64,000 bases of DNA, taken from Planoprotostelium fungivorum. Lineage: Eukaryota; Evosea; Variosea; Cavosteliida; Cavosteliaceae. Positions 1 through 64,000 of the stretch are shown one piece after another. Under the pieces are notes generated by a model. That model saw only the letters and a list, made by a program, of their open reading frames with translations. It was not told the DNA's origin and ran no database searches. Location: the NCBI GenBank assembly GCA_003024175.1, contig MDYQ01000135.1, forward strand, positions 1 through 64,000. The letters are read 5' to 3'. The translations under genes were made by a program, and so were the position numbers. Positions within the stretch are counted from its first letter, which is position 1, and each line of letters starts with the position of its first letter.

Positions 1-680
1 TCAAAAAGAACAGTGTAGCGCGAAAATTTTATGGCACATTCGGGAGTCCTTCTTGGCCACCAACCGGAAAAATCGAAACAGTTGTTTGCGAGGTGCAGGA
101 AAGATCAAGTTCCCATTTATCGGATGAAGCTCAGAACGGTGGGGATTCGAAGTAAACCGACCCCGCTTGGAGGCGGAGGAGCTCTATCTAGAGTCATCTC
201 AAACGATCTCCACACCGGAATCATGATTATGTCAGAATGAGGCAAAGACACGGAACGAACAAAGAGAAGAGCTGAACGCACAGAGAGCCCTACATTCCAT
301 ACGAGCAAGGATCGTTTAGAGGATGAATATTACATATGCCAATGAACAATTACGGAGGTGAGACCAACCACTAATCTTCCAATCAGAAAGTGAGTACATC
401 GGAACGCAACAACCAGTTGTTGCAGTAATGCACACTGAAATGATTTACAATTGGCATGAAACATAATGTGGATCACTTGAGCCAGATCTAAGTAATGATT
501 ACACAACAATAGTCATTGTGCTCTGGTAGGGTACAATAATAAAAAAATAATACATTACAAAAAACCCCTTCTATAGACAATGTGAAATGTGTACATAAAA
601 CAAGGATGAAATGGAACAATTGTCTATATGTACACTGCAATGATAAACAAACAAAATCAGCTACAGGGGGGGGGGCTAGA
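1..680. other. No supported gene; left edge
   Basis: Only short overlapping frames occur here and none shows a recognisable domain or a convincing exon chain. The right end, about 665-677, has a run of G just before the 5S repeat array. It may hold the distal exon of a gene lying off the left side, but nothing in the window supports that. Confidence 0.5.
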
Positions 681-917
681 CCTGTCTTGATCTCTGTTTG
701 GCTGGTGTAAAAGGCATTCCCATGACCAGTTTTTCATTTATGGTTCCACACCTTTGAGGTAGGTCTGCCATCTGTCATGTGATAGAGGTCTAGCCTCATT
801 GTCACCCATGACCCTGACTTCCTATGTATTTCTCAAAATCATAGACTTTCTTTTCATAGATTTTCTTTTGCCCCAAGTGGTATGGGGTCACGGTAGGGGT
901 ATGTGGATGTAAAAAAA

Positions 918-1032
918 GTAGGACACGAGGGCTTTCCAAGTGGTCTCCCACCTTAGTACTGGCCTCGCCCATATCAGCTTACTTTCCGAGTTCGGCATGG
1001 GATCGGAGGTTATCTGATAGGTATGATCCTAC
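918..1032 (-). rRNA. 5S ribosomal RNA, copy 1
   Basis: Read on the minus strand this is a 115-nt 5S rRNA. The 5' end GTAGGA pairs with the 3' end TCCTAC. The core contains the universal CCGATCCCATGCCGAACTCG segment, which is loop B/C and the internal promoter (TFIIIA-bound C box). The 3' part holds the conserved TGGGCGAGGCC and TGGGAGACC helices. A run of seven T follows immediately on the sense strand at 917-911, the normal RNA polymerase III terminator. The RNA would join the large ribosomal subunit. One base near 935 differs from copy 2 (GGAAAGCC against GGGAAGCC). Confidence 0.93.
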
Positions 1033-1268
1033 CTGTCTTGATCTCTGTTTGGCTGGTGTAAAAGGCATCCCCATGACCAGTTTTTCATTTATGGTTCCAC
1101 ACCTTTGAGGTAGGTCTGCCATCCGTCATGTGATAGAGGTCTAGCCTCATTGTCACCCATGACCCTGACTTCCTATGTATTTCTCAAAATCATAGACTTT
1201 CTTTTCATAGATTTTCTTTTGCCCCAAGTGGTATGGGGTCACGGTAGGGGTATGTGGATGTAAAAAAA

Positions 1269-1383
1269 GTAGGACACGAGGGCTTCCCAAGTGGTCTCCC
1301 ACCTTAGTACTGGCCTCGCCCATATCAGCTTACTTTCCGAGTTCGGCATGGGATCGGAGGTTATCTGATAGGTATGATCCTAC
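1269..1383 (-). rRNA. 5S ribosomal RNA, copy 2
   Basis: This is a second 115-nt 5S rRNA gene in the next tandem unit, same strand and same T7 terminator (1268-1262). Terminal stem, internal control region and 3' helices are all present. It differs from copy 1 by one base in the 3' helix, where this copy has the GGGAAGCC seen in most eukaryotic 5S rRNAs, so this may be the better representative. Confidence 0.93.
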
Positions 1384-1603
1384 CTGTCTTGTTCTCTGTT
1401 TGGCTGGTGTAAAAGGCATTCCCATGACCAGTTTTTCATTTATGGTTCCACACCTTTGAGGTAGGACATGTGATAGAGGTCTAGCCTCATTGTCACCCAT
1501 GACCCTGACTTCCTATGTATTTCTCAAAATGATAGACTTTCTTTTCATAGATTTTCTTTTGCCCCAAGTGGTATGGGGTCACGGTAGGGGTATGTGAAAA
1601 TTC

Positions 1604-1671
1604 GAAAGTAATCTGATATGGACGAGGCCAGTAATAAGGTGGGAGAATACTTGGGAAGCCCTAGGACATTT
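1604..1671 (+). pseudogene. Inverted 3' fragment of a 5S rRNA gene
   Basis: About 67 bp match the 3' half of the 5S gene (GAAAGTAA, CTGATATGG, CGAGGCCAGTA, AAGGTGGGAGA, TTGGGAAGCCCT), but on the opposite strand to the two intact copies and with roughly ten substitutions or small gaps. The 5' half, including the box C region, is absent. It lies exactly where the third unit should carry its 5S gene, so it marks an inversion or broken junction at the edge of the array. It cannot encode a functional 5S RNA. Confidence 0.8.
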
Positions 1672-2601
1672 TATACACAATGTCTTGTGCTAGTTTTAGT
1701 GTTTACTGCCATAATCAGTACAAATAGCATTCGAAGTATATGAGGTGAAACACATTAACAGACTATTTCAAACTGGTCAGCAATAACAACAGAATTGTTG
1801 GAAGCCAATATTTAGAATATCAAGAATTTTTTTTGGAATCACCAGATGTCTCTTTCTTAAACTTTTCCACAAGTAGCATTCCACACCAAAGAATTTCAGA
1901 TCAATGTTAGACCAGTTGCAGGTGGTTTCTCCAATGATATCAACGCTTCCAAGCGCGCGTTATCTCTCATTACTGAGGAGGCTATTGTTATGTTTGGTTC
2001 ATGTCATGAAACTCAGAGTGACCAGTATCATCTTGGGAATGTATTGGTTAAGATACCATGACCCACATTCGTCATTCTAATAACAGTTACCCAAAATTTG
2101 ACCCAGACTGGTGTGAGGGCCACATGATGACAGAGTGCCTTATAACTCTAACTTCAGTGTTGAAGTTGTGAATGCCAAGTATTCTTGTGAAATGTCACAG
2201 GTGACTGCCATTCACACCTATTTGTTATGTTGCAAGGACAGATGTTGATACAACAGACAGGAGGAGCGTAGATCCCGCAATCCCTGTCTATCCGGACCAG
2301 TCTCTTGCATCTCTGACACTGTGTACCCTAGAGTAACAGGTGAGTTACCCAGTAATCCATCACATAAACCACAGATTGAAGAGAGTTTGTCTACAATTGC
2401 AGCACTGACAAAGAATTGCAGATTGTAGATCACACCAGTCTGGGCACGCCACCCTCAGTGCAATGAGAAGCGGTCTGGAAGAAGGATATGCTGGTGTAAC
2501 CAACCCTGGACACTTCAGGAACTGCTGGCTTTAAAATAAAATGTAATAGAAAACCGTTTTATTGTCTAATGGATGCTTCATGAGAAGTTGAGACAAATTT
2601 A
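1672..2601. other. Gene-poor stretch, possible decayed coding sequence
   Basis: No open frame longer than about 70 codons and no recognisable domain. Some short stretches around 1890-2060 and 2310-2420 read like protein for 30-40 codons before stopping, which would fit an old decayed gene or element. I cannot name a family. Confidence 0.35.
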
Positions 2602-2666
2602 GCCTTGGAATAACTGTCAGGAATGCTTGCAATGGATTTCAAAATGTAGTTTTTTTTTGATAAATC
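2602..2666 (-). repeat. Partial inverted copy of the 303-bp repeat
   Basis: This segment is the reverse complement, with about 10% changes, of the last 60-65 bp of the tandem repeat at 3738-4342 (shared landmarks GCCTTGGAATAAC, GTCAGGAATGCT, GCAATGGA, AAATGTAGTTTTT). Together with those copies it makes an inverted pair about 1.1-1.4 kb apart, as expected of a transposon end or a MITE family. Confidence 0.7.
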
Positions 2667-3737
2667 TGCAAAGCTCACAATTTTTCAAAATGTATATTCA
2701 ATGACGCAAGATCAATGATAATCTAACCAAAAATCCTTTATTTCACGGAGCAGAGCTCTCCAGACTGCAACTCAGCCTCTGGCTCAAGTGAACTGCCCTT
2801 GTCTTCTTGAAAATATGCAATCATCTGGGCATCCAGGACAAACATGCTTGTCCCCATCTCCTTGTGTTCAACACAATCCTGCATGCCATCAGATTGTCAT
2901 GGTAATCACCTCTTGGTTTGTTCTGACTGGGCACTGGTCCCCTCAAGCCCACATATAACTGTGTTGCTGTATCATCCTAGGATGTGACCATATGTGTGAT
3001 TTAATATTTGTGTTCAATCCTCTCACCTTTGCAACGTTGTTGGCCATTGTTCAGCCAGGCAGACTCTTTCTCCTTGGAGGAAACCAAAATGCACCATCCC
3101 AATCTTGGATCCCTGGGCATAGTGCATTGAATCTGTCGTCTCTTTGTTGGACAAGACAGATTGTGACAAAGGGAAGACCCCTGTGCCACGCATCAAGACG
3201 CTGAATTGGACCTCAAGTGTTTGATCTACACCTATTAATAGAAGAGAATAAAGTTATTGTTATCCAATCAACATCAACAACGATACAAACAAACATTACA
3301 TCCCAAACAGCGGTGAGCTCCATTAATTCATCAATACCTGCATTGTGTTCCTCTTTGAGTCAATAGCTAACAATATGTAGGAATCTTCAAAGTGGAAAGC
3401 CCTCTCGGTTACAGGACCCCCGCATTGTGTATTGTCTCACATGATTTAGGTTTGTTGATTAGTTGCCCTCTTTGTTGGTAATGTCATAATCTGATGAATC
3501 GCTTTTGAAATGCACAGGTTGTTGTAATATTCAGCAAGAGCACCTGAATCAACTGAAAGGTGAGAACAGAGTCTCATGTTACAGTCATTCACATGCAACA
3601 GACAGCTCACTGTTTTTATCTCAGATTGACAGTGACGTCAATGGTGTTATATTGACTGTATAGACAAGTGAGTCATGTGAGCAGGATTGATGTAATGATG
3701 TTGCTGATTCGACTCTGATTATTACCGATTAGATCAT
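2667..3737. other. No supported gene; lies between inverted repeats
   Basis: Short frames only, no domain, no splice-consistent exon chain. Its position between the inverted partial copy at 2602 and the tandem copies from 3738 suggests it could be the interior of a degenerate DNA element, but no transposase remnant is visible. Confidence 0.4.
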
Positions 3738-4342
3738 CCTCTACCGTTGGCTGGCAACCGTTGGGACGGCAGCATCCAATGCCTACTGAATAAATGATAA
3801 GACTGCCTAGTTATTCATCTGCATGCACGTGTCTCCCTTCAAACTGCATACACATTTCGAAACCTGATCAAGTAATTTTTGACACACAATTCGAAATGTT
3901 AGCTGGATCATCAGCCACTTCAAATTGCTAGAGAAACGGAATTGACATGGATTTCGAAATGTTTATCTGATAATGCTAATAAATCGAAAAACTACATTTC
4001 GAAGTCCATTGCGAGCATTCCTGACGGTTATTCCAAGGCCCCTCTACTGTTGGATGACAACTGTTGGAACGGCAGCATTCAATGCCTACTGAATAAATAA
4101 TAAGACTACTCTGTTATTCATCTGTATGCACGTGTCTCCTTTCAAACTGTGTATACATTTCGAAACCTGATCGTGTAATTTTTGACAACAATTCGAAATG
4201 TTAGCTACATTATCGGCTATTTTGAATTGCAAGAACGGCTAAATAGACATGATTTCGAAATGTTTATCAACAGTTGGCGATAAATCAAAAAATCAACATT
4301 TCAAAATCCACCGCGAGCATTCCTGACGGTTATTCCGAACCC
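3738..4342 (+). repeat. Two tandem copies of a 303-bp TTCGAA-rich repeat
   Basis: Copy 1 runs about 3738-4040 and copy 2 about 4041-4342, roughly 85-90% identical. Each begins CCTCTAC(C/T)GTTGG and ends near GACGGTTATTCC. Inside each copy the motif ATTTCGAA or its complement recurs four to five times, so several short hairpins can form. No coding capacity. The divergence between copies suggests an old duplication. Confidence 0.85.
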
Positions 4343-11236: not shown

Positions 11237-11878
11237 ATGCCCGAGAGAGTACTCGTACGTCCAACCCCCAGAGGTAAATTCACCATCCATTCTGTGCTCA
11301 CATCTCACAGGAAGAACCTCTTCACCTTCTCTCCCAATCGATAACTCGAATGGGATATTGAGCACACTGAGACAGACGAAAGATAAAGTCGTCCGCTCTA
11401 TCTCCTCCGGTGTTCAGACAATCATCGAGAAGACGAGAGAGGTATCTCAACTCGCACGTGACAAGCTGAGAGAGAGCTCAGTATCTATAGCCAGGTGAGA
11501 GATGCAGCATGGTGCATTGGAGGTGACGTCACACAGATTCGTCTTGGATCTTCAGCGTAAGTTTGGCCTTGGTGTAAGCACCATCACGGGTGCAAACACT
11601 TCAAGAATCACGGGACCAACCTCCAATACGGCCATATCACAGCAGCATCCAGAGGCAACGGCCGCCGTCCAATCACAACTGAAGGAGACACCTACCGGTG
11701 AAGAGATGGTAGATATCTCTCAAGATGTGAGGAGAAAACATTCACGTGCACGACTCATAGTACTCATCAGTTGCCCGTCCGTCCATTAGAAGACATCGTC
11801 GGATCAGACCAATCATTTGCAGCCGACATCAAGAGTGCAAGAAAGCAGGTCTTCAACGCGAGGAAGTCTAACCAATAA
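11237..11878 (+). CDS. Hypothetical protein, 172 aa
   Basis: Four exons (11237-11273, 11311-11494, 11537-11726, 11771-11878) with introns of 36-44 nt and consistent phases. The N-terminal third contains an amphipathic helical stretch (RQTKDKVVRSISSGV, then EKTREVSQLARDKLR) of the kind found in membrane-surface or apolipoprotein-like helices. The middle is Thr/Gln-rich and the C-terminus is basic (FNARKSNQ). No domain recognised. It is followed after only 59 bp by the convergent 3' end of the methyltransferase. Confidence 0.6.
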
Positions 11879-11937
11879 ACGAAACCGTTGTACACGTGTC
11901 GATCTTCTCCATGAAGAGACGACATCGATCGTCTATT

Positions 11938-14900
11938 TCACGATGCAACATGTTTCGGTCGTTTGATGACATCCTCTTTCTGCAGACCTCTCATGTTCCT
12001 CAATATACTCGTTCCAATCGCTTTCGCCAGTAATGGTGGAACCGCATTTCCGATCTGATCGACACAAATCAGCCCGCACATCATGCAACATCGTCTTCCC
12101 ACCTGCTTCTGTTGAGCGGTTCTCTTCCCCTTGAAACGAAAGGAGTCTGGAAAAGATTGGATTCTGGCCAATTCCCTGACCGTGAGCGTGCGATCTCCTT
12201 TACACAATAGAGTTCGCGAGGGCTTCTTCCACTCTGGATCGTTTGTGGGGGGTGATCTCTCTTTGTCCCATCCTTCGTATAATTCTGTTCGACAGTCATC
12301 TTCTTTCGACATGGTGTTCCATCTCGCCTTGCATGTCGGGGTCGATGCCTCTCATCTCACACTGGAAGGCATTCTTAGGTCCACTGTAATACTTGACGTC
12401 GGCTGTAGACTTGAGCTTTCCTCTCTCAGATGAAATGACCCACCATCGAGATCGACCTCCTCCGATCGGTCGTAGATATCGCTGATGGCGTTCCATTTTG
12501 ACACGGGTAGGCTGCATTCGAGTCAATGTCTCAAACGAAGACGAATGTGATACCAGGGAGGTGGTTTGATGGTGGTCAGCTGATAACCTCGCTTGGCTGC
12601 GATGAGAATGAACCTCTTTCTATTCTGTGGGACACCATAGTCACTGGCCAACAGTCGCTGCTTGATCACCTGTCGTTCCATCAATCTCACACTCATCACA
12701 CATCATCACAATGACATCATCACACATCACATCACACCACATGAGATCACATCACATCACCATCGTCTATCTCACTTGATAATCGTTGTGAATCAACATC
12801 CTCAACATCCCCCTCACGAGCGTCTTGTTCTTTGGAAACTCGATGGCCTCCACGTTCTCGAATATAACGTACTTTGGCTGCACGGTGGACACGATCTCAA
12901 AGAAGACGACCATCATTCTCGTGATGGCCTCTTCAGCCGGCTCGGCAGAAGCATCTGCGTGGTTTTTCGAACGATTTGCCGGGGAGATGGACTGGCAGGG
13001 TGGACCACCGACTACGATGTCTACGTTGTCGTCCGTGATCATGTTCCTGCGATCCATCCAGTACTTGAGTTTGTGGCGGACGAATTGTTCTTCGATCTGG
13101 TCCCTCACGCTGGAGATGAGAGAGCTCCAGGGAAGTTCGATGAGTTGGTCGCGATCAGAATTGGGGAGTACGAAACGGACGGTGACCTGACTGGATGAGA
13201 TTTCCGCGAGATTTCGACGAGATTTCTATTCGATTTCGTACGATGAGGTTGGACTCTTCTTCCGCTCTCTGTCGAGGTCAGTGGAAATTTCGATGAAATT
13301 TGGTATTCACCTTGAATAGGCCGTTGAATCGAACTTGAGTGATCTCATCCACAACGGCACCTTCTCTCCATCAGATAATTTACGGAATACAAACGGATGA
13401 GAGTGTGAGATTTCGTCGATATTTCGACGGAATTTCATCAAACACCTGCTCGTAAGAGGTCGAACAGTTTGACGAATGTGGGGTGGATTTCGGTCTGCCA
13501 CGTGTCGTGTTGTTCGGACCATCCGGCCCAACGAATCTTGAATTCCCTCTTTCCTCCACTCGCTCGGTGGTCCACGATGTGGCTCACCTTGTATTGTCCT
13601 TCGTCTTCTTCTTGATTCGGATCGAAGATCTCTGGATGAGGTCACGATGAGAAGATCGGATGGTGATGCGATGGTGGTGCGATGGTGGTGCGAGATCGTA
13701 AAAGTGACGAACAAGAAAGACGAATAGCTCCACACTCGATCCAAACGAATCTCACCTCTCTCGATGATCTGCGGCCTTCCCTCCTTGAAAGCTTTCAGCA
13801 AGTCCGGACAGTTCAGATTTGACAGAGGCTGCCACATGGCCTGAGCGTAAGCGTATCCCTTCCAGTAGATGAGATACTCTTCCTCCCCCGTCTCTTCGTT
13901 CTATGACGGCTCAGTTTCACATCCACATCCACATCATCTCACGATCTGTTCATCGGTGATCTCTTCGACGTCGTATTCGTCCGAACTGTCTTCATCTCTC
14001 AGCCACATGCGAGGGTCCCCTCTCTGAATGACGATATCCTGTTCAAAAGAGACATTTATTTTCCGTCTACAACGCGCCGTCGCCTCACCTTCCTCGCCTT
14101 GCTTCCACCTATGGCTCCCAGTAGGATCTGAGTCTTCCTCTGCATGATCTCAGCTTCTCCATACATCTTGACGTGGGGAAAATTCTTTCGATAAGTCTTC
14201 GTGGCAGCTTCATCGCTCTCTACTGCCCACTTGGCTTCGATTCCGGCCATTCTCAAACCCTGAGAGAGTCCTCCAGCACCACTGAAGACGTCGAGCATCT
14301 GTCTGTCCATGAGATGGAGATCGTCTCGTCGCGATGGACGTACCTTTGGTTTGTAATGGGGAGGGAATTTGGTGGGGGTACCCGGCTCTGCATCTAGAAA
14401 GGATTTCGTTTTCTCGTCGTAGTAGAAACGATAGAACCATCTGTCTTTTGTTCGATGGAGATCGGGTATCTGTTCGAATCAGGTGGGGATGATACATGTG
14501 AGATGATGGAATCGTCACGGGAGAGCCGGGAGGGACATAGTTGACCGTGCATTGACCTTCGATCATCTGAGTGTCGAATTCGTGCTGCTCTTCATCGAAG
14601 CCTAAAAACAGCTATGAGGGATCAGACGACGGCATTGCATGCGGAAGATGATACCTCCTTGTTATTTCCCATCAATCCGATACGTCCCAACTCGGTATCG
14701 TGATTGTTATAGAACCACCTGCCTCTGAAGTAAATGTTCTCATCTGGATCCTGTATTACTGTCAAACCTATGTTGCTGTGAGGGTGATACCTTATAGATT
14801 CGATCGATTCGGAGGATCCAGAAGGGTTCTTCCTCGACTTCAGGTTTCAAATAGACACAATCGCCGACATAAAATTCTGAACCCAATAGATCGAACTGTG

Positions 14901-14961
14901 TTATATTTATGGAACCAGAGTCCACTCTACTACCTGGTCTCTGCCTCGATCGCCTTCCCAT
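11938..14961 (-). CDS. Chromomethylase-type DNA (cytosine-5) methyltransferase, BAH plus two chromodomains
   Basis: Sixteen exons (14961-14791, 14750-14655, 14611-14519, 14469-14344, 14298-14089, 14038-13943, 13900-13756, 13631-13446, 13363-13311, 13268-13242, 13186-12776, 12669-12554, 12511-12444, 12402-12311, 12258-12103, 12054-11938) give 720 residues. Order: BAH ([13 protein letters not shown] to about residue 165); motif [14 protein letters not shown]; chromodomain 1 ([24 protein letters not shown]); chromodomain 2 ([26 protein letters not shown]); motif [16 protein letters not shown] with the catalytic Cys; motif VI FENVEAI; motif [13 protein letters not shown]; target region with AISDI and FQCEMRG; motif [17 protein letters not shown]; motif [15 protein letters not shown]. 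Chromodomains between motifs I and IV are the hallmark of chromomethylases, which methylate DNA on H3K9-methylated nucleosomes. The junction at 12310-12259 is the least certain splice. Confidence 0.9.
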
Positions 14962-15353
14962 CACATTGATGTTTCAAATTGTTTTGCGAGGAGCGAAAAA
15001 TTTGACAAGTACGTCTACGAAGCTGCATTCATACTTCTGAACTATGCAGGTCGCACCGTCGCGACCTCCAACACAGGCTAGAGGCTCACCATAGGGAGAG
15101 CAGCGTTCTAAATTTGAAAATAGAGACAAAGACAAATTCTCCGGAGCCTTGTAAACTGTCTTACTCCGTTCTTGAGGGAGAGCGTCTGAGGAGTCCGACC
15201 TCTAAGGTGTGAGAAATTCTTAGCGCAATGAATCAGGTCTGTTGCCGTACCGGTGTGACGAGCTAAGAAGTTTCTCCTTTTTCCCTCAACCCGAAATCTC
15301 CTGCGTCAATCTTCTCCTGCCGAACACAACTTCCGCACCTCTCGACAGGCAAC
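14962..15353. promoter_or_regulatory. Divergent intergenic promoter region
   Basis: About 390 bp between the leftward methyltransferase and the rightward Cys-rich gene, so it should contain both promoters. An upstream ATG immediately followed by TGA overlaps the methyltransferase start (14965-14960), a possible brake on translation. No specific factor site can be assigned. Confidence 0.4.
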
Positions 15354-16126: not shown

Positions 16127-16417
16127 AAGAGATCCACACGAATATGAATCGAAAATAAATTAAATGAGTCAATTTGAGTTCTTAGATGGCCTTGTCACCC
16201 TCAAAGCTTCGGCCCTCTTCCATTTCATCGAAGTCTCACAAGATGATGATGATGATCTCTCTTGAGGGACGCAAAGAGGGACGATCGATTGAGGTGGAAT
16301 GAAGGATGGATCTCTCGCATTCCTTTATCTTGGGGTTTCTTCGGTACAAACAGATGGAAAACGCTGATCGTTCGATAGATGATGCGTGCAGATAGAGGAG
16401 TCAGCCGATGTCTCTCG

Positions 16418-18207
16418 TCAGAAGGCTCGCACGGGTAGCAATCGCCACGTCTGTAATGGCTCTTGCTTCTTCTCTTCTGTCAGCTGCATCTCTTGTCTTT
16501 CCATTTGGTTCGTACATTTCGTACACTCTAAGAACTTGCCCGTGCCAACGTTTCTCAGCGTCCAAAATCTGTCCATGTCACTCTCTCTTCTCTTCTCTTC
16601 TCTTTCTCACTTTCCCATCGACTTCTTCTGCTTGTCTTCTATGTCCACCGAAGTGACGTCCCACTGCTGATGCACGCTCTTCGCATCATCTTCTGTCGCA
16701 GACAGCTCTCCCGAAGCTTTCGCGCCAAAATACTTCTTCGTCTCTCGATTCATGAACGTGTGGTGTCCCTCATCGTTCGCCTCCACCTACCCACGTCAGC
16801 AAGAAATCCCGTAAAAATCTCGTAGAAAACTCACCACCCATTGGTCTTTACCCTCCCCTGTTTTCACGGGAGCAAAAGGTCTTTCTGTCAATAGATAAGA
16901 CGTGACGTTCTGATTCTCCAATCGGAAGTATGTCACTGGCCCTTCCAGTTGCTCTCTACCGGGTGGCTTTCTGATGCGAAAGGCTGTAAAGTTGAACTGT
17001 GCCGTGTCTTTGTACTCGATGTACTCTGTCAGAGCCTCTCTCATGTCTTTCTTCACGTAATCGATGTATTCTGCTTCCAGTCACTCTCTTTCCTTGTTTT
17101 CGCGTAAAGATGAGATATAGAAGGGAGGCCGTCATCGAAGTGAAGACACACCTGCCGCTCTCATCGGCTGATCGACGACGTCGAACCATCGTCTCAGATA
17201 CTTCTTCACTGGATCTCTCGCGTGTACCTTCCTGCCGATCCAGTACACTGAACTGTACAACACATCCATATCACCCAGGCCATAGTAGCATGGACTGTAT
17301 CTTCTTTCAGCTTCTGTGCGGCAGATTTTAGCGGAATTTCGAATCTCACCTGCTACCTGTCCTTTCGTTCTGGTATGTACGGCAGGGTGAGTTCCAATAG
17401 GTGAAGAGGTGATAGTTGAGAACGGTCCAGTGCCTCCACGGTGAAGAGTACAAGATACTGGCCCAAAAGCTCTATCTCTCTATCAGTACACGAAACATCC
17501 ATGCGTGTATTGTATAGCGTGGAATGAAGAAGAATCCTTCTCACCTCGTCTGGGTACATGTTCCACTTCAAGAAGTTCGTCCAAGGTCCAAGTATGGCTG
17601 GACTCAAAACGTGAACTCCAAACTCGTAAGGAAACATGACCCAGTTGACCGACGGTACCACCACTGCGTGATAAGGTGAAGTTGTCATGGCGTTACAGTC
17701 GACGTCCATGCACCTACCCCTCGTCAATTTGAAAGACGATCTCCTCGTCGTCACCTGGCTGAAGTTCTCCAGCACTTTGAAGAAACTGACTGTAGTACTC
17801 TTTCATCTCACGATATGTCTCACTGCTCAGTGCCTTCGCGGCGAGGATGAAGAAGAGATCATCGGTGTGATTCATTGCAGAAATGAGCTCTGTGGCGCTG
17901 GCCACTGTATCTGCACTGTGCACGACCATCAGATAGGCGATGGAGAAGCGTTTCGGATTTGTCTCCTGCGTCAGTTAATCAAGTGGAAGACATCATTCCG
18001 AACCTGGATGATGGACAACGAGGCGCTGTCCTCTGAAATCGGCTGCATAGTCTGCCATTGTTCAGAGCCAGCAGTCAAACTTCTTCGGAGGTATATAACC
18101 AGAAATACGAATGTTAGTGCCACTGCAGACTTCAAGAGGAGGGGTGAGTTCTACATCATGTCAATCGAACAACATCATCGACGATGGAAGATGAAGCATA
18201 CCTTCAT
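16418..18207 (-). pseudogene. GT14-like glycosyltransferase paralogue A, lacking the catalytic exon
   Basis: Tandem paralogue of the gene at 18900-20945. Start 18207 (two codons, then an intron), a type II membrane anchor (SAVALTFVFLVIYL) in exon 2 (18150-18004), then the conserved YLMVVHSADTVASATELI segment. The roughly 340-bp block that in copy B encodes the WASWRQVEATL sugar-nucleotide region is missing: the text jumps from YYSQF straight to the next exon, and the reading frame after the junction is shifted and ends within about 25 codons. The downstream exons (CMDVDCN to GPWTNFLKWNMYPDE, FWASILYSSPW, and the C-terminal trefoil-like part ending LLPVRAF) remain open and about 85-90% identical to copy B. 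Either a recent pseudogene or a gene with an unseen splice route. Confidence 0.65.
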
Positions 18208-18899
18208 TTGTGCGAGCTATGAAGAGTGCTGGGGAAGCTGCTTCCGCATAACAACTATCATTTCTCGGGAATTGAGTTTGGTCAAAATCCGACAGTGCCT
18301 CGGTAAGTGACGAGACAGTACGTTTAGTATGACATTGCGACCCCAGTAAAGATTAAGAGATTAACCCCGAAAGAATGAGGGATCGACAGGGCCCTTGAGA
18401 GGCCCATGAGATCACGATGGTCTATCTGGCATAATATTTCGATCTCATCTGATCCGTAGGTCATTTGAAGGACAGTGAGACGGAGGCGAATTCTACGGTC
18501 CCCTTATTCATCGAATCACCTTTGCAGGTGGGCACGTTGCTCATTGAGATGGGGAGGCAAGTTTGTGAATCTCGTCAAGATCGAGTCAAGGACCCACAAA
18601 AGAGGAGAAGAACATGAATGACAACAACAGAGAGACACAACCAAGGGAATTGTATCCTCAGTGGTACCACCGTCAAGTTGAAAGACTTTCTGAATAAGAA
18701 CTCTCCTGGATGTGGCGCCACAGAGTTCATCTGTTCGACAAATCACACCGAGCTTCTTCATCTTTGCCGATCCTGACGAACGCCAAGTCTACACCCGAGT
18801 GCAAGAGATCCAGCAAGAAGAAGTCGCAAGGATTTTGAGGAAAGCTGAGATGAGAGCAGATCGGTGATAGAATGTATGCAATCAATGCATCAAATTTCA
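18208..18899. other. Spacer between tandem glycosyltransferase copies
   Basis: About 690 bp with the promoter of copy A at its left end and the 3' flank of copy B at its right. No gene is supported; short frames near 18600-18850 read like coding text for about 30 codons and then stop. Confidence 0.4.
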
Positions 18900-20945
18900 T
18901 TAGAAGGCTCGAACGGGTAGCAGACGCCACGTCTGTAAGCGCTCTCTCTGCTTCTCTTCTGTCAGCTGCATCTCTTGTCTTGCCAGCTTGCTCTTGCACT
19001 TTGTGCACTCTAAGAACTTGCCCGTGCCAACGTTTCTCAGCGTCCAAAATCTGTCCATGTCACTCTCTCTTCTCTTCTCTTCTCTTTCTCACTTTCCCAT
19101 CGACTTCTTCTGCTTGTCTTCTATGTCCACCGAAGTGACGTCCCACTGCTGATGCACGCTCTTCGCATCATCTTCCCCCAAAGATAACCCTCCCGAAACT
19201 TTCGCGCCGAGATACTTCTTCGTCTCTCGATTCATGAACGTGTGGTGTCCCTCATCGTTTCGTTCCACCTGCATCCATCACTCAAAATTTTAATCTCGTA
19301 GAAAACTCACCACCCATTGGTCTTTGCTCTCTGCCGTCCGAACTAGACTGAACGGTGCATCGGTCAGGAGAGTCTGAGTCACGTTCTGATTCTCCAATCG
19401 GAAGTATGTCACTGGCCCTTCCAGTTGCTCTCTACCGGGCGGCTTTCTGATGCGAAAGGCTGTAAAGTTGAACTGTGCCGTGTCTTTGTACTCGATGTAC
19501 TCTGTCAGAGCTTCTATCATGTCCTTCTTCACGTAATCGATGTACTCTGATTCCCGTCAATGAAAGAGACAGATGTACGGCGGATGTGAAGGAGATGTCA
19601 TCACGAGCGTCACCTGAAGAGCTCATCGTCTGATCGACGACGTCGAACCATCGTCTCAGATACTTCTTCACTGGATCTCTCGCGTGTACCTTCCTGCCGA
19701 TCCAGTGCACTGAGCTGTACAGCACGTCCATGTCACCCAGACCGTAGAAGCATGGACTGCGTTTTCTCTCAGTTTCTACGCGAATTTCTGCGGGATTTCA
19801 AATATCACCTGCTGCCTGTCCTCTCGTTCTCGTATGTACGGCAGGGTGAGTTCCAATAGGTGAAGAGGTGATAGTTGGAAATGCTCCAGTGTCTCCACGG
19901 TGAAGAGTACAATATACTGGCCCAGAAATTCTGCTCTCCGTCGGTACACGAGACGATGGTTGATTCTCACCTCGTCTGGGTACATGTTCCACTTCAAGAA
20001 GTTCGTCCAAGGTCCAAGTATGGCTGGACTCAAAACGTGAACTCCAAACTCGTAAGGAAACATGACCCAGTTGACCGATGGTACCACCACTGCGTGATAA
20101 GGTGAAGTTGTCATGGCCGTACAATTGACATCCATACATCTATCCTTCGTCACTCTTCACGGGTTCCTCTGTTTCATTCACCTGGCTGAAGTTCTCCAGC
20201 ACTTTGTCTTTCTCGTCTCTGCCGTCTCGTTGTATTTACAGATCGGCTCGTACGGCCCGACGTAAGATGCGAAGGGGTGCAGCGACTGCATCCACGAACG
20301 ATAGTCTGCCGGCCGCTTGAGAGGATACGATCCTCCGTCTACAAACACTGCCTTGTCCCACTTGTGCGGATGCTGCACGGCCACTCGCAGCACCTCTAGC
20401 GTCGCCTCTACTTGTCTCCACGATGCCCAGCTCCCGCTCATGCGCGATTCGCAGAGCTGAGAGGTAGAATGAGATGAGATGAAGGTGATTCACATGGAAG
20501 GTCTCACGTGTGTGTTGGGAAACTGACTGTAGTACTCTTTCATCTCACGATATGTCTCATTGCTCAGTGCCTTCTCGGCAAGGATGAAGAAGAGATCGTC
20601 GGTGTGATTCATCGCAGAGATGAGCTCTGTGGCGCTGGCCACTGTGTCTGCACTGTGCACGACCATCAGATAGGCGATGGAAAACCTCTTTGTGTTGGTC
20701 TCCTGATCTCATTTAGTTAAAAGAAGAAGGAGATCAGTACGAACCTTGATGGTGGAAGATGATGTGTTCTGCATCAAATAGACGGACTTGGTGGTCTGAC
20801 ATGAATGAGAACCGTAGAACCAACCAGTTTGAAGGTGCAATACCATTAAGAGACCCAAGGCCGTCGCAGCCAACCGCATGAAAAAGGATAACTGCTGCGT
20901 CCCGTCATTCAGACATTAGAACATCGATCGGGCGATCACCTTCAT
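18900..20945 (-). CDS. GT14-like (core-2/I-branching) glycosyltransferase, type II membrane, copy B
   Basis: First exons: 20945-20940 (Met-Lys only), 20894-20745 (membrane anchor LAATALGLLMVLHL), 20702-20508, 20456-20182. The catalytic region has YLMVVHSADT, then GSWASWRQVEATLEVLR and FVDGGSYPLKRPADY, matching the WaSwsqVEA and D-x-YPLK motifs of beta-1,6-GlcNAc transferases (GT14) and plant DUF266 proteins. Next come GPWTNFLKWNMYPDE (acceptor region) and FWASILYSSPW. The C-terminal third (GHHTFMNRETKKYLGAK, KFWTLRNVGTGKFLEC) looks like a ricin/fascin-type beta-trefoil, possibly a glycan-binding module. The splice near 20181-20140 is unresolved. An in-frame upstream extension (ATG at 21140) carries another hydrophobic stretch (VTVIIIAITTLTILL) and may be the true start. 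Golgi location is inferred. Confidence 0.75.
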
Positions 20946-23651: not shown

Positions 23652-25698
23652 ATGTCACAGAGAGAAGCGGCCGTACAGAGATTGAATGATCAGAATCATC
23701 CCAAAGGAGTTGAAATTCGAGAGCATTTGGAAGAGCAGCAGAGTGAGTTCATGACGTCTTATCCCCATCCACACTCATCACATTATCCAATGACATATGA
23801 GACATCTATCTAATCTCTTTCCACATCATCATCACGACAACCATCATCTCCGTTCCATCCTCCTGATCTGGTGACATCCTCCTGATCTGATGACATCAGG
23901 TGTCGGATTATTCAACCTCAGGGGGAGAACAAAGGGAGAGACCTTGTTCACAGAGACTTCCCTCGCAACTGCACCCATCGACTCGCAGCACTGCCACCAC
24001 TGTTGCAAAGACATCGGCCCAAACGCCATCGTCTTACCATCCGGTGCCCACGTGACCGCAATCGATCAGTTCGGCGTGGGTGTACGTAACTCGAAATCTC
24101 ACGGTGCGACGACATTTCACCGACTTTTCGCAGGTTCCCAAGGTGCTGAAGAATAATCCGAAGGTGAAGAAATTATCCGAAGAGACCGTGTCATGCCCGG
24201 TGTGTCTGTCCTCGTTCTGCAGTCACCAGTGCCTAGAAGAGTCGACCAAGTATCACGATGTCTATTGTGCACCCGCGGGAGCAGAAGGTGAATCTACAAC
24301 CAGCCACCGATACATGATGACGTCATCTGACGTCATACGGAGGTAGTGCACAGTGGGAGATGATATCGAATGCACCGGAACCGAAGATAGGGGCTTTGTC
24401 TGCGAGATTGTACGGGATATTGATCAACGAAGAGAAGAAGGGAGAGCTAGAGGTGACTCCACTACCTTCATCATCCATCACCATCGCGTGTCATCATCCA
24501 TCTCATTTCAATCATCTCATTACCTCATCATCATCTCATTACCTCATCATCATCTCATTACCTCATCATCATCTCATTACCTCATCATCATCTCATCATC
24601 ATCTCATCATCATCTCATCATCATCTATTCACATCATCACCACGATCATCATCTCATCATCATCTCATCACAATCATCATCACATCGAATCGATGTTGAC
24701 CACCCAATCAGATCACACTGGAAGAAGAAGGAAGGAGTGTGTTCGGTGCAAACGCCACGAAACAAGAGGATGCCATCACTCTATTCACTCGCAGTCTATT
24801 GGGTACTGCCACGGAGGACCCGCAGGCTCTGGCTGTACCGGAACCGCAGGAGAAGAAACTCTACACCATCGTGAGAGGAGGAACGTGGGACGTCTTAGAT
24901 ACGATGGACAGAGCACCACCCTTCCCAGAATTAGAGAGGGTGAGTGACGATGGAGATGATCGCGATCGCATGGTGATCGTGATGATGATTGCGATCAGAT
25001 CATCCAAGAAGAGTACAGAGATCTGAAGGACTTGTTGACCATCCGAGGTCACGCCGACTCCAATATCCTTTCATCATCATCATCATCATCATCACTTTCC
25101 TCGACTCTCTCACAGCTGCTGGACGAACAAGTCTATCGAGACCTCCGCCTCATCTGCACCCAAAACAGCGCCAAGTTGGAGACGCAGGTCGAGCATCTAA
25201 CGGAGAACGGTTCAAATTTCGAGACGGAGACGCGTTTTCCATCGAATGGAGTGTTCATTGCAGTGACGGGGTCGTTCATCAATCATTCTTGTGAACCGAA
25301 CGTGTCCATGTCGAATCTGTACAACCACGAGGTGATCATCATCGTACGGCTGTCTTCACATGATCGAGATGTGAAGATGACACGAACACGTTCATCATAT
25401 CAGCTTCATCGTCATATCATCAATCTATCATCAACATCCTTGTGTCATCATCCTAGAACTGTATCATCAACACATCATCATGTTGCATGCGATGTACCTG
25501 GGTTGATATAGAGGATAGATCCGTTGGGAGGCAGAGAGAGAGATCGGAGCAGGAGAAGAACTGTTTGTGTCTTACGTGGACAACAGCATGTCTCTCGATG
25601 AGAGGAGAGAGGAGCTGTTCAATCGCTACAGCTTTTGGTGTCAGTGTTCTCTCTGTAAGAAGCAGCAAGAAGAGGCGGAGAATGAAGAAGAGGGCTGA
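23652..25698 (+). CDS. SET-MYND protein, SMYD5-like
   Basis: Seven exons (23652-23742, 23900-24075, 24134-24287, 24343-24452, 24712-24939, 24999-25331, 25519-25698) give 423 residues, close to human SMYD5 (418). The SET N-part shows GLFNLRGRTKGETLF; the MYND zinc finger follows (CHHCCKD, then CPVCLSSFCSHQCLEES with H-x3-C). The SET core has FINHSCEPNVSMSNL (the AdoMet-binding NHSC and PN) and GEELFVSYVDNSM (the catalytic Tyr), then a post-SET Cys cluster (WCQCSLCKK) and an acidic tail as in SMYD5. SMYD5 proteins methylate histone H4K20, H3K36 or ribosomal protein L40 in animals; the substrate here is unknown. A Ser run near residue 290 is encoded by a TCATCA microsatellite. Confidence 0.88.
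24480..24711 (+). repeat. Imperfect CATCATCTC microsatellite in an intron
   Basis: Most of the 259-bp fourth intron of the SET-MYND gene is an imperfect array of CATCTCATTACCTCAT and CATCATCTC words. It makes this intron about five times the usual length. No coding or structural signal. Confidence 0.85.
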
Positions 25699-39559: not shown

Positions 39560-40345
39560 GCAATAGTCATTTGCATCGCTAACATCCTGAAGAAGGCTGT
39601 CGTGAGGCTCTCGCCAGAGAAGTGCCGGTAGCACTACCAATTCCTTGTTCGAGTGATATCACCATAGGTATCTCATTTCAACACTCTTCGTCCATCGGAC
39701 CGTCGTTCAGACACTTGTTCACCAAGACAGAAGTGGGTTCGGCCACCTTCAATGGAGCCCAGACTACCATAGGAAGAAGTCACCTGATCTCGCGATGATC
39801 GTCATCTCATTCGTGAATTCCACCACCACCATCATCACACATCACTTGGATTGACCTTTTTAGAAACAAAGGAGGATCTCAAATCCTCATCTAATTTCAA
39901 CCACTCGATCAACGATTGGCAATGAGTATCGTCTTTGTACGATTCCACAATCGACTTAATCAGATTGTTATGTTTAACATCATCGTTCTCCCGTATGACA
40001 CGGAGCTCTTCCCGCTCTATTGGTACAAAGACCTTGGGTTGGAGGAGACATCTCTCTTGCGATGCTCTGTCCCCCCTGTCGAGTGCATCTTGAGGTCGAC
40101 GCGATAACGCATCCGCGCATACGTTTAATTTCCCCGGACGATGATGAATAGTCGGAAAATATCTGTGCCGCCTTATGGTTGGCATCTCAACTTCGTGCCC
40201 CAGCAGTTGATGTTCAAGGTGAGAGCATTGGAGGAGAAGATGTTCAAGGGCAGCGAAGATCGTGGGGCAGCACTGTGTGAAGACATCACACATTTTTTTT
40301 CTTCTCCTGCAAGGGAAGAAAATGAAGTTTTGTTGATGTTGCATT
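39560..40345 (-). mobile_element. Ty3/gypsy retrotransposon fossil (pol fragment)
   Basis: A pol-derived remnant on the minus strand. The right part carries the end of the RNase H domain with the HRPGKLNVCADALSRRP signature typical of Ty3/gypsy; the left part, toward 39560, resembles the N-terminal zinc-binding part of an integrase. No gag, protease, most of reverse transcriptase or LTRs are visible. It is broken, with several interruptions between the parts, and clearly not a whole element. It abuts the DUF3883 gene. The good match of the RNase H motif suggests moderate rather than great age. Confidence 0.75.
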
Positions 40346-40547
40346 TGATAAACATAAACATTCGTTAGCTACCAGGTAACCCCGATGCTCTACGGTTAAG
40401 TAAGCACTTTGTTGGTCAACTCTATAAATGAACGAATGGACCTGTCATGACATTGATTCTGTCTGTCTCGACAATTCGACCTATTATTCCGGTGTAGCGT
40501 CGTGAAAAGAATACCCAACAAAAACCAACAACAGAACAACATCAAAG

Positions 40548-49119: not shown

Positions 49120-51296
49120 ATGACGAATGGAATCATCTCCAGTCACGACAGCACAAAGATTATCTTGAGATCAGCTCTCAATCACATTCAAGAAAAACAC
49201 CGATCAGATCGGATCACGTGGAAGAGACACTTCGCCTCTCTTCGTAGCACCTGCAAATTCTGGAAAGATATCGGTGAGATGTCGACATCCTTCTGTCTCC
49301 TGATGATCTTCGCACAGTGGACAACTTTGTCGATTTATTTCGTTACGCCGATCTATTAGATGCCATGGCTATAAGTTCGATCGATTCCGTTCGTTTCCTC
49401 GTCAGCCGGCCCGTCGAGCTCACCGACGATCCCCTTTTCAGATGGAAAAGAGATGAGAAGATCACCACGTCACATGCAACGGAAATCTTGAGAATACTCT
49501 TGACACATCCTCGCATCAATCCATCCGCCAATGACAACTCAGCCGTGAAGGCGGCCATCATCAGAGGAGAATTCGAAGCCGTCAAGCTGATCGTGGCTCA
49601 CCCCAATTTCGATCCCACCCCGCACACCTATGACGATTCACCTCTGGGATACGCATTCAAGAGAGACTCCACGAAGGTCATACACCTGCTCTTGAACGAT
49701 CCTCGAGCAGATCTATCGGCACGAAGCAACGAAGCCATTCGATTGGCCAGCAGTTATCGCCGTATGGACATCCTCCAGATGCTGTTGAACAACCCGAGAG
49801 TCGATCCATCAGCAGAGGACAACTTTGCAGTCAGGAGAATATCTGACTTTGGAGCATCTGAGGCATTGCTGATGCTATTGAACGATCCTCGCGTGGATCC
49901 ATCAGCGGGAGACAACGAAGTCATACGAGGGATAGCCCACCACATCGATAACGATCACACGGCCGAGGTCGTCAGGCTGCTGTTGGCCGATCCTCGTGTG
50001 GATCCAACAACGAGGGACAACTATGCGATACGAAATGCATCGAGTTCAGGTGCCACCGAGATGGTACAGCTGCTGTTGGCTGATCCTCGTGTGGATCCGT
50101 CAGCAGGGGACAACTATGCCATTCGAAATACATCTTATCTGGGTAGAATTGAGCTAGTCCGGTTGCTGCTGTCCCATCCCAGAGTCGATCCTTCAGCAAG
50201 AGACAACGAGGCCATCCGGAGGATCAGCTCATACATGTCCGCTGAGCTCGTGGGTCTGCTCTTGAACGACCCTCGTGTGGATCCATCGGCGAGGGACAAT
50301 GAGGCCATTCTAGGTGCATGTCATGTGGGTAAAACGGAGGTACTACGATCATTATTGGCCCACCCTAGAGTCGATCCTTCTGCCAGAGACAACGAGGCCA
50401 TCCTGATCGTCTGTAAGTCGAACGACATCGAAAAGATCAAGCTCCTATTGGCCCACCCCAGAGTCGACCCTTCAGCAAGAGACAATGATGCCATCCGAAC
50501 AGCCGTCAGGATCGACGTCGTTCAACTGCTCTTATCTCATTCCAAAGTCATTCCACCGGCCGGTGGTTCAGAAGGCGTGCAATGATGGATCGATCGAAAT
50601 GGTCCTAAGCATCTTGGCTCACCCTCGCGTGGATCCGTCTGCAAGGGACAACGAAGCCATCCTTTTGGCATTGAAGAAAGGATAGACTGCCGTGGTGCAG
50701 TTCTTATTGTCCCACCCCAAAGTCGATCCATCAAGCGGCAACAATCGAGTCGTGAGAGGAATATTGGAGTACAGCTGGTACCCTCGCATCGAGACGATCA
50801 AACTGCTCCTGGACGACCCTCGCGTGGATCCATCCGCGGAGAACAACTGGGCCGTACGGAAAGTTTGCCACTGGGGTTTTGAAATCCAATTGGTCCAGCT
50901 CATATTGGCTCATCCTCTCGTGGACCCGTCAGCAGAAGACAACGAGGCCATCCAAACTGCCTGCAGGTATCGTGACGATCGAGTCGTTCGACTGCTGTTG
51001 AATCACCCCGCGTTGACCCGTCCGCAAATCACAACAAGAGTATACGCATCGCATCGCTCAACGGCTGCACCGATGTAATGCGCCTTCTCTTGGCAGATCC
51101 CAGGGTAGATCCATCGGCTGAGAACAATGAGGCAGTCAGGAACGCATCGAAAGGGAACCACGAGAAGGTCTTACGAATGCTTTTGGACGACCCTCGTGTC
51201 AATCCATCACCCGATGTGATCGCTGAAGCTGTCAGAGAGGCATACGCCAATGGACAAGTCACGATAGCGAGGATGTTGTTAGGAAGAGAGATATAA
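49120..51296 (+). CDS. Ankyrin-repeat protein with a broken 3' tail
   Basis: Exon 1 is 49120-49273; exon 2 starts at 49318 and stays open to 50585, together about 473 residues. From about residue 130 the protein is an array of 33-residue ankyrin units with a very uniform core (LLLADPRVDPSARDNEAI) in at least twelve copies. Downstream to 51296 the same repeats continue for about seven units but in three different frames, with one in-frame TAG near 50685 and frame changes near 50560 and 51010. So either the intact product ends at 50585 and the rest is decaying, or the assembly has errors. The intracellular partner is unknown. The N-terminus (TWKRHFASLRSTCKFWKDI) resembles an F-box-type start. 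Confidence 0.8.
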
Positions 51297-61923: not shown

Positions 61924-64000
61924 ATGTTCGATCTCACCAGCATACCTGTCCTCGTTGGAGGTGCAGTCGTGACGTTATTATCTGCTACTCTCCTCCTTCT
62001 GCGTCCCAAGAGGGTCTATACCGTAGAGGTTGGAGAGAAGAAGAAGGGAGAAGGCCGTGCGAGAAGATACTACAAGACAGCCGACGCCATCTTGGCCACC
62101 CCCAATGATTCCATTCATACCCTCTATGATCTTCTGACGTACTCCGCTCAGAAGAGACCCACTCTCAACGCCTTTGGAACTCGTCCTCTCATCAAGGTGG
62201 GGATCTTCTTCAAATCTTCCCTTCTTCGCCGCCGCGTCACTACCATCGTACATTTTCTCAATCCCATCAGGTCCACGTTGAGGAGAAAGACGTCAAGAAC
62301 TCCCAAGGCGACGTAGAGAGAAAGAAATGGACTTACCTCGAGCTCGGCAAGTACGAGTGGAAGACATACAAAGTAAAACTCTCATCCATCTTCCATTCTC
62401 ACCTCGATAGGAAGTGTTGGACCTCGTCCAACACGTTGGAACCGCTCTCACTACCGAGAAGCTCGGATCGCTGAAGAAGGGAAGCATGCTGGGTATCTAC
62501 GCCGAGACCTCCGAACAGGTGACATCCTCTTCTCCTCTACTTCTCATCCCCTCCTTCTCTTCTTCTCCTTCTCATCTTCTCATACAGTGGCTCACATTCG
62601 CCCACGGAGCTTTCTCTCAGAGCATGACCGTCGTCACCATCTACGCCAACTTGGGTGAAGAAGGCCTCGTCTACTCCCTCAACGACACCAACTTGTCTCA
62701 CCTCTTAACCGATGGCAACCTCCTCGAAGTCATCGTCAAGGTGAGAACATCACCGTCTCATCCTCCTCCATTCATCTACCCAACTGACATCTTTAGAACA
62801 TCAAGCAACTCCCCAAAATCAAGTACATCATCTACACTGATCATCGCGAGGCCGCCAATCCCAAATCCGTCCAAGCCCTCAAAGACAGTGGCATCACCGT
62901 ACGTAACTCGAAATATCCACCTCTCACCCTCTCAGGTTCTCTCTTACACAGAGATGGCAAAATTCGCCTCTTCACTCCAGGCCAAGCCCAACCCACCCAA
63001 GAAGGACGATCTTGCCGTCATCATGTACACATCAGGTACCACCGGTAATCCAAAGGGAGTCATGATCAGTCATGCAAACATCGTCGGTGTCGTGGCGGGT
63101 GCCGTCGTTACCGTGGGAGAGCCCCTTGGTATCAAGGAGGGAGACACCTACTGCTCTTTCTTACCTCTCGCCCACATCTTAGAAGTCGGTGTGGAGCACA
63201 CGATCATCATGAGAGGTGGTTGCCTCGCGTTCGGTTCCCCCAGGTGAGATCACCCATCTACAACCCGCCCGTCCCAAATCCGTCCCAAATCTGACCCGTT
63301 CAGAACCATGATGGACAACCTCGTGAAGAACTGCAAGGGAGATCTGATGGAGTCGAAGCCTACGCTGATGGCCGGTGTCCCCGTCCTGTGGGAGAGAATC
63401 AGAAAGGGAGCTTACGAGAAGCTAAAGACTCAGCCTGCCATCACCCAGCAGGTATTCAAAGTCGCCTTCGCCATCAAGGCCTTCTTACTCAACCACGGCT
63501 TCCACCACGCCCCCCTGCTCGACCAGGTCAGTTCCCGCCAAAATTCGAATGTAACGGTCGCAGGTCATCTTTTCGAAATTCAAACAGACCGTGGGTGGCA
63601 GGTTGAGAGGACTGGTTTGTGGTGGTGCACCTCTGTCTGCATCGACCCATCAGTTCTTACGCGTCGTCTTCAATGTTCCCGCCCTGCAGGGTTACGGTAC
63701 GTACTTTGAAATCTCCCGTTACGTATGTGACGTCATCTTACGTCATAGGTCTGACCGAGACGACCGGTCTGTTGACCTGCCAGCCCATGGATGACTTGTC
63801 TTACGAGACGGTGGGTGCTCCCTTCCCCTGCGCTGAGATCAAGCTTGTCGACGTTTCTGAGATGGGATACACTTCTGAAGACAAGCCTTACCCTAGAGGA
63901 GAGATCTGGGTCAGAGGAACTGGTATCACTCTGGGCTACTACAACCAGCCAGAAAAGACGAAGGAAGAATTCAAGAACGGATGGTTCTCCACCGGTGACA
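61924..64000 (+). CDS. Long-chain acyl-CoA synthetase (5' part; runs off the window)
   Basis: Exon 1 61924-62196 opens with a membrane anchor (PVLVGGAVVTLLSATLLLL). Exons then give WTYLELGKYEWKTYKEVLDL, WLTFAHGAFSQSMTVVTIYANLGEEGL, the AMP-binding motif VIMYTSGTTGNPKGVMISH, FLPLAHILEVGVEH, RLRGLVCGGAPLSAS, LTETTGLL and GEIWVRGTGITLGYY, the standard series of ANL-superfamily motifs with the long-chain (ACSL/LACS) type linker. It activates fatty acids to acyl-CoA at a membrane (ER, mitochondrion or peroxisome). The C-terminal lid with the second catalytic Lys is beyond the window end. It may feed the acyl-CoA pool acted on by the thioesterase at 9280. Confidence 0.93.

Follow-up and report, generated by a model that had tools for sequence, protein, structure and literature searches.

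A predicted cytosine-5 DNA methyltransferase with two chromodomains inside its catalytic domain in Planoprotostelium fungivorum

Gene model and domain order

The first 64,000 nucleotides of contig MDYQ01000135.1 of Planoprotostelium fungivorum, the whole stretch of DNA that was analyzed (hereafter the window), carry on the minus strand, at 14961-11938, a gene for a predicted DNA methyltransferase in which two chromodomains are built into the catalytic domain. Six-frame reading of 11800-15250, followed by manual joining according to GT-AG sites and phase, yielded 15 exons and a 710-amino-acid product. Exons 1 to 5 lie at 14961-14791, 14750-14655, 14611-14519, 14469-14344, and 14298-14089; exons 6 to 10 at 14038-13943, 13900-13756, 13631-13446, 13365-13311, and 13190-12776; and exons 11 to 15 at 12669-12554, 12511-12444, 12402-12361, 12299-12103, and 12054-11938. 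The introns are GT-AG in 14 of 14 cases and 40 to 124 nt long, and a single open frame ends at the TGA at 11938. Introns 4 and 14 are stop-free and have lengths that are multiples of three, and either could be retained; removal of intron 14 is favored because of the homology at motif X. From the sequence, we take the gene model to be sound and the architecture to be real.

When the 710-residue protein was queried against Pfam-A, the only families above cut-off were BAH (a single stretch, residues 29 to 146, E 1.5e-17), DNA_methylase (E 2.8e-53), and Chromo (E 1.8e-20, in two separate stretches), with no replication-foci, CXXC, or SNF2 match; TIGR00675 also matches, beside PF00145. The order is BAH, motif I, chromodomain 1, chromodomain 2, and motifs IV to X, with motifs I, IV, VI, VIII, IX, and X starting at residues 163, 454, 504, 546, 648, and 672 and the chromodomains at 254 and 326. 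Only 16 residues separate the end of the BAH domain from motif I, and the protein stops about 30 residues past motif X. The BAH domain (PF01426) is encoded by exons 1 to 4 at 14392-14877, and its nearest solved domains are those of EBS and SHL (41 bits), PBRM1 (35 bits), and DNMT1 (34 bits); that of ZMET2 scores 18 bits. An earlier, sequence-only reading of this DNA had proposed the same domain order and coordinates, which splicing and Pfam-A bore out. Its gene and span likewise stood, while its length of 720 residues became 710 after manual splicing.

Chromodomain 1 (residues 254 to 304) is encoded by exons 6 and 7 at 13781-13975, and chromodomain 2 by exon 8 at 13446-13631, with its Pfam stretch, residues 326 to 360, at 13489-13593. 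Each was tested apart against PF00385 (cut-off, 25.1 bits), giving 48.4 bits (E 9.1e-13) and 34.2 bits (E 2.4e-8), respectively. Because each passes the cut-off alone, the matches are beyond chance, and chance or artifact was ruled out as their source. The two chromodomain-like segments noticed earlier are thus confirmed, as is the claim that they keep the tryptophans of the aromatic cage: in a four-row alignment, every cage position is aromatic in both, the triads being Y-W-Y and Y-W-W, next to Y-W-F in an HP1-family row and F-W-Y in MPP8.

The nearest solved chains to chromodomain 1 are HP1/CBX proteins (49.7 bits for a chain that matches in two stretches; next, 43.0 bits), and those to chromodomain 2 are HP1-alpha (37.8 bits) and MPP8 (37.5 bits). 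The pair resembles the HP1/CBX and MPP8 chromodomains in sequence and in aromatic cages but is built into a methyltransferase, and chromodomain 2 differs from them in having Trp as its third cage residue and in lacking the NL-CP segment. Trp at this position is the Polycomb pattern, and it is therefore possible that chromodomain 2 reads a second mark, such as H3K27me. In pairwise comparison, the two chromodomains score 53 with each other, 121 and 102 with HP1, and 70 and 68 with the ZMET2 chromodomain. Recent duplication, or an origin from a plant chromomethylase chromodomain, is weakly disfavored on these sequences; nearness to HP1 is itself a weak argument because the ZMET2 chromodomain likewise scores high with HP1 (111). 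CHD1 also has double chromodomains in tandem, but its chains fall well short of the top HP1 chains (27 versus 50 bits for chromodomain 1 and 24 versus 38 bits for chromodomain 2). A predicted structure of exon 8 made with exon 7 as second row (61 residues; predicted local distance difference test score [pLDDT], 53.6) has three strands and a short helix; the exon 10 model reached a pLDDT of 69.8. A Foldseek search of the exon 8 model against PDB, to which we give no weight, returned 0 matches at E <= 0.001, the HP1-alpha chromodomain being third (E 0.77) amid unrelated folds. Among viral contigs, 19 pattern matches to the chromodomains yielded 0 confirmed relatives, and a search of genome G001 and 14 control genomes, which carries no evidential weight, found no chromodomains.

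Exon 8 is 186 nt long, symmetric (phase 1-1), and houses chromodomain 2 alone, so that skipping it leaves a clean in-frame product of 648 residues. A splicing explanation, in which exon 8 is normally skipped and the usual protein has one chromodomain like plant chromomethylases, draws on this symmetry. We think it very unlikely: exon 8 encodes a chromodomain with an intact cage between GT-AG splice sites (CAG acceptor, GTGTTT donor), and omission of exons 6 and 7, which removes the whole of chromodomain 1, shifts the frame.

The flanking introns 8 (13366-13445) and 9 (13191-13310) have CGTCGAAATnTCGnCGAAAT-like stretches in common. Allowing up to 3 mismatches, such stretches match 9 times within the window against 0.05 expected; 5 of the 9, some overlapping, fall in these two introns. 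They could be intron-borne repeats.

Catalytic core and target recognition

Conservation was assessed in a 50-row alignment of the protein and 49 of 160 prokaryote and viral relatives, all 160 having been chosen for likeness to it; a further alignment used 19. All 22 invariant columns are kept by the Planoprotostelium protein, including catalytic Cys458, ENV, and both arginines of motif VIII. Motif I (residues 163 to 172; 14269-14298, at the start of exon 5; PF00145) retains invariant F167, G169, G171, and G172. In motif IV, GGPPCQ (residues 454 to 459; 12992-13009), G455, P457, C458, and Q459 are invariant and G454 and P456 are conserved in at least 90% of rows. Motif VI, ENV (residues 504 to 506; 12851-12859), is invariant throughout, and motif VIII, QNRKR (residues 546 to 550; 12613-12627), has invariant R548 and R550, with Q546 at 90% or above. 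Motif IX, RELARIQ (residues 648 to 654; 12157-12177), keeps R648, E649, and A651, and motif X, QIGNAVPP (residues 672 to 679; 12034-12105, interrupted by intron 14), keeps G674, N675, and P678. With these six motifs and the catalytic cysteine, the protein belongs to the C5 cytosine methyltransferase superfamily. A DNMT1-type Asn-Arg pair follows PPCQ in the protein and in all three references from eukaryotes, namely, maize ZMET2, Arabidopsis MET1, and human DNMT1, compared with 4 of the 139 prokaryote and viral relatives, out of 160, in which the PPCQ motif was found.

The target-recognition domain (TRD; residues 579 to 647, 12178-12486) is the shortest among the 53 compared. Spacing between motifs VIII and IX is 102 residues, against 104 to 160 in the 49 prokaryote and viral rows, 199 in MET1, 223 in ZMET2, and 243 in DNMT1. 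When the references were aligned with the TRD kept, the loss fell in mid-TRD: the ZMET2 loop I segment (Y776, F780) faces a gap, while a loop II-like TNDPEW stretch is present. In ZMET2, according to PMC9256654, loop I spans residues 770 to 787 and loop II residues 799 to 810, and Y776 and H808 form a pocket for the template-strand methyl group; our numbering agreed with the solved chain at 8 of 8 named residues. Because loop I, a part of the ZMET2 pocket for template 5-methylcytosine, has no counterpart here, we infer that preference for hemimethylated sites is probably weak or absent.

So short a TRD invites the explanation that the gene product is an expressed chromatin adaptor or weak enzyme, with too little TRD to handle DNA and with the chromodomains and BAH domain doing the work. 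The spacing is indeed below that of all 49 prokaryote and viral rows and all 3 eukaryote references, but it lies just two residues under the shortest relative, and the catalytic cysteine, ENV, QxRxR, and both motif I and motif X are kept, whereas an inactive enzyme would tend to shed them. We give this explanation little credence.

Family likeness and descent of the catalytic domain

Plant chromomethylases (CMT3, CMT2, and ZMET2) have the same arrangement of BAH, motif I, a chromodomain between motifs II and IV, and motifs IV to X, and both chromodomains of the Planoprotostelium protein sit at the position of the plant one. The PPCQxIS and PKYV-ENV residues are shared with ZMET2. Of the features by which a chromomethylase is recognized, we found the N-terminal BAH domain and the placing of the chromodomain after motif II and before motif IV; we did not find a TRD with both loop I and loop II, which read CHG/mCHG in ZMET2, or, provisionally, a common clade with known chromomethylases. 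The protein further differs from these enzymes in having two chromodomains instead of one, a motif VIII-IX spacing of 102 rather than 223 with no loop I, a motif X of DNMT1/bacterial type, and a BAH domain closer to those of EBS and SHL. With DNMT1 and MET1 it shares a BAH domain just ahead of the catalytic domain and Asn-Arg after PPCQ, and with DNMT1 the motif X form GNAVPPxLAKAIG; it departs from both in its single BAH domain, its chromodomains inside the catalytic domain, and its short TRD. The replication-foci domain and paired BAH domains expected of a DNMT1/MET1 type, and the CXXC expected in holozoans, did not appear in Pfam, where a single BAH stretch is the one match of this kind. 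DNMT5 identity was rejected, as Pfam gives no C-terminal SNF2 ATPase match and only about 30 residues follow motif X.

According to published surveys, chromomethylases are exclusive to plants, their defining feature being a chromodomain placed between motifs II and IV, which chromomethylase-like enzymes of Chlorella lack (PMC9861306), and they occur across Viridiplantae and are absent from sister groups (PMC5410703). Chromomethylase-like DNMTs are reported in haptophytes, along with orphan DNMTs that commonly stem from transfer and mostly lack companion domains (PMC12344493); also described are nine DNMT4 proteins of diatoms with chromodomains at the N terminus and haptophyte enzymes that cluster with chromomethylases, with no chromodomain named (PMC9998398). 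The Planoprotostelium protein has three companion domains, in contrast to orphan eukaryote DNMTs, which are generally without them (PMC12344493). No double-chromodomain DNMT appears in the passages covered of PMC10538959, PMC11244446, and PMC3145265. Among the open-licence PMC papers listed in searches, titles and abstract openings likewise yielded no DNMT with two chromodomains, and the papers listed for Protostelium and Planoprotostelium had nothing on their DNA methylation.

Against solved chains, the catalytic part scores 114 bits with DNMT1, 108 with MET1, 95 with bacterial 3g7u, and 93 to 94 with ZMET2. The solved fungal enzyme in an HP1 complex (9baq), which we take to be Neurospora DIM-2, scores 36.6 bits, compared with 114 for DNMT1. 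Trees were built with ZMET2, MET1, and DNMT1 as eukaryote references, ZMET2 being the sole chromomethylase drawn from the database; they contain no DIM-2, DNMT5, DNMT3, algal chromomethylase, or haptophyte chromomethylase-like row, DIM-2 being missing because the alignments shown, made with a RID/DIM-2-like fragment from outside the database, do not include the fungal enzyme.

In 4 of the 4 trees shown, the Planoprotostelium protein falls outside the ZMET2+MET1+DNMT1 clade, whose paired support values range from 100/97 to 100/99. The first tree (69 rows) used 65 of the 160 loci, namely, the best 38 bacterial or archaeal and 28 viral ones minus one protein shorter than 300 residues. Here the three eukaryotes group at 100/99 without the protein, which joins two viral rows (94/90, with a long-branch warning); by the approximately unbiased (AU) test, neither its grouping with all three eukaryotes (p 0.537) nor that with ZMET2 (p 0.252) was rejected. 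A 42-row set had 37 loci, and its second chromomethylase is a sequence not drawn from the database; in view of the 69-row tree, ten loci were dropped from it, eight of them on long branches and the other two, L087 and L088, being the protein's viral neighbors there. With all columns, the eukaryotes again group without it (100/99), and the AU test gave p 0.0118 for its union with both chromomethylases and p 0.525 for that with all eukaryotes. Without the TRD columns, it becomes the sister of the eukaryotes (75/83), with p 0.0103 for union with the chromomethylases and p 0.0101 for union with MET1+DNMT1; placement inside MET1+DNMT1 was rejected on the latter value, from a set containing one row not drawn from the database. 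The last set (41 rows) held only database-derived eukaryotes and every fourth remaining locus of at least 300 residues (37 loci), with TRD columns dropped in the tree shown; an all-column tree of this set was built and is not displayed. The protein is again sister of the eukaryotes (92/82), which group without it at 100/98, in a run whose bootstrap had not settled, and its pairing with ZMET2 was not rejected (AU p 0.248). AU rejection of a chromomethylase pairing is provisional, since p is about 0.01 only with the second, non-database chromomethylase and 0.25 with ZMET2 alone.

These results bear on whether the gene is a true chromomethylase, a fast-evolving member of that clade with one chromodomain added and a piece of its TRD lost, perhaps acquired by transfer from a green alga or inherited within a green lineage. 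Such an origin accords with the shared chromodomain position and BAH domain, with motifs IV to VI, for which ZMET2 is the best match (58.2 bits, rank 1 of 162; ISxxNRx(R/K)N, EP, and PKYV-ENV in common), and with an AU test that leaves the ZMET2 pairing standing at p 0.25. However, the reference clade excludes the protein in every tree shown, the AU test rejects its union with two chromomethylases (one of them not from the database), motif X differs from the VGNAVAVPVARALG of ZMET2, the BAH domain matches EBS better than ZMET2 (41 versus 18 bits), and, as a weak point, the chromodomains are nearer HP1 than ZMET2. We consider a true chromomethylase unlikely.

Alternatively, a captured bacterial or viral C5-methyltransferase could have been fused to a BAH domain and chromodomains, making the protein an orphan DNMT that became analogous to chromomethylases and is not specially related to DNMT1. 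Consistent with capture, bacterial and phage enzymes give one collinear match along the whole catalytic domain (up to 158 bits; about 28 to 33% identity among the best 25), on a par with the summed pieces for ZMET2, MET1, and DNMT1 (151 to 158 bits, smallest piece excluded). The TRD is of compact, bacterial size, PF00145 and TIGR00675 both match, and the all-column trees of 69 and 42 rows put the protein among prokaryote and viral enzymes, with weak or unstarred support; orphan DNMTs, moreover, commonly arise by transfer (PMC12344493). Yet the protein groups with eukaryotes once TRD columns are dropped, the AU test keeps that grouping in both all-column sets (p 0.537 and 0.525), Asn-Arg after PPCQ is rare in prokaryote rows, and those rows were picked for likeness to the protein, which favors the capture reading. 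Among viral contigs, the 535-residue part from motif I onward found no pattern match. Capture, too, seems to us improbable.

By descent, the protein is probably the sister of the group of DNMT1 and the chromomethylases and not a chromomethylase proper, judging from these alignments; we tentatively read it as a deep branch beside that group. The sequence-only reading, which had called it chromomethylase-like, thus held for the architecture, in chromodomain position and BAH domain, and was not supported for family membership, given thinly sampled trees and a TRD that is not of chromomethylase type. A position firmly within DNMT1 without chromodomains, the outcome it had named as contrary to its view, was not what we found.

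Proposed working and genomic surroundings

The explanation that we favor, with reasonable though limited confidence, is that the gene encodes a histone-guided cytosine-5 DNA methyltransferase of the DNMT1 superfamily, an early-branching or convergent chromomethylase-like enzyme. Its two chromodomains, housed in the catalytic-domain loop that runs from motifs II/III to IV, and the one BAH domain ahead of the catalytic domain would bind methylated H3 tails, likeliest H3K9me given the cage residues and the similarity to HP1 and MPP8. Such binding would hold the enzyme on repressed chromatin, where the catalytic core would methylate cytosines nearby, probably in the manner of a chromomethylase. 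We infer histone binding, DNA as the substrate, a CG context, and a silencing role. Histone-guided methylation, suggested by the earlier reading, stays a best guess from the architecture, the aromatic cages, and the conserved catalytic core.

A more tentative proposal, which we would not call probable, is that the chromomethylase design did not originate with plants, a deep sister lineage of DNMT1 and the chromomethylases carrying it with two chromodomains. Prior surveys describe chromomethylases as plant specific or nearly so, with possible chromomethylase-like enzymes in haptophytes. The chromodomain insertion would then either be older than plants, with a loss in DNMT1, or have arisen on two occasions at one and the same loop; the two histories are equally cheap because both cost two steps. 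Under this proposal, a histone-guided enzyme lacking the hemimethyl-reading loop would place CG methylation on repeats by histone reading and not by copying of the parent strand. If the protein lies outside the chromomethylase clade, single proteins that link histone marks with DNA methylation arose more widely or earlier, and the enzyme would provide a natural experiment on the replacement of hemimethyl reading by histone reading. The cassette-like chromodomain exon makes the dose of histone reading accessible to tests by splicing.

A CpG-poor island at 501-3700 fits the footprint that CG-methylated repeats would leave. Its CpG observed/expected ratio is 0.29, against 0.79 to 1.15 in 142 overlapping segments of the same size outside it; CAG/CTG is not depleted (1.41 versus 1.05 outside), and TpG and CpA are raised over 1-4000.

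Several observations weigh against the explanation that we favor. The island was selected after the profile had been seen, and its GA/TC use is 1.04 compared with 1.27 to 1.64 elsewhere; because of this difference, its origin may be foreign, or the contig end may be chimeric. Activity could be low or lost, given the short TRD. Besides the all-column placement, ZMET2 ranks last of 161 for motifs IX and X, and with the whole catalytic part ranked by single best match, DNMT1, MET1, and ZMET2 come 160, 161, and 163 of 163, a low standing that reflects the long TRD splitting their matches and the selection of the other rows for likeness to the protein. A Foldseek search of the exon 8 model against PDB, to which we give no weight, returned 0 matches at E <= 0.001, the HP1-alpha chromodomain being third (E 0.77) amid unrelated folds.

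The island is also AT-richer, and 5S rDNA repeats of 351 bp occupy about 680-1596 within it. A scan of ten long open frames, out of 37 listed for the window, recognized no other methylation gene. A SET-domain protein piece with NHSCEPN lies at 24960-25511 (21.9 bits versus a Pfam cut-off of 22.4). A direct duplication spans 16415-17968 and 18897-20705, with a spacing of about 2.4 to 2.7 kb and pieces 87 to 95% identical. On the minus strand at 39835-40368, an open frame with GKLNVCADALSRRP looks by eye like a Ty3/gypsy RNase H remnant and has no Pfam match at 0.01. An ankyrin-repeat protein at 49278-51153 has a 93-bp coding repeat with units of the form DPRVDPSARDN (49278-50585), reminiscent of protosteloid amoebae, and 62411-63247 encodes an AMP-binding enzyme resembling acyl-CoA synthetases (E 1e-34).

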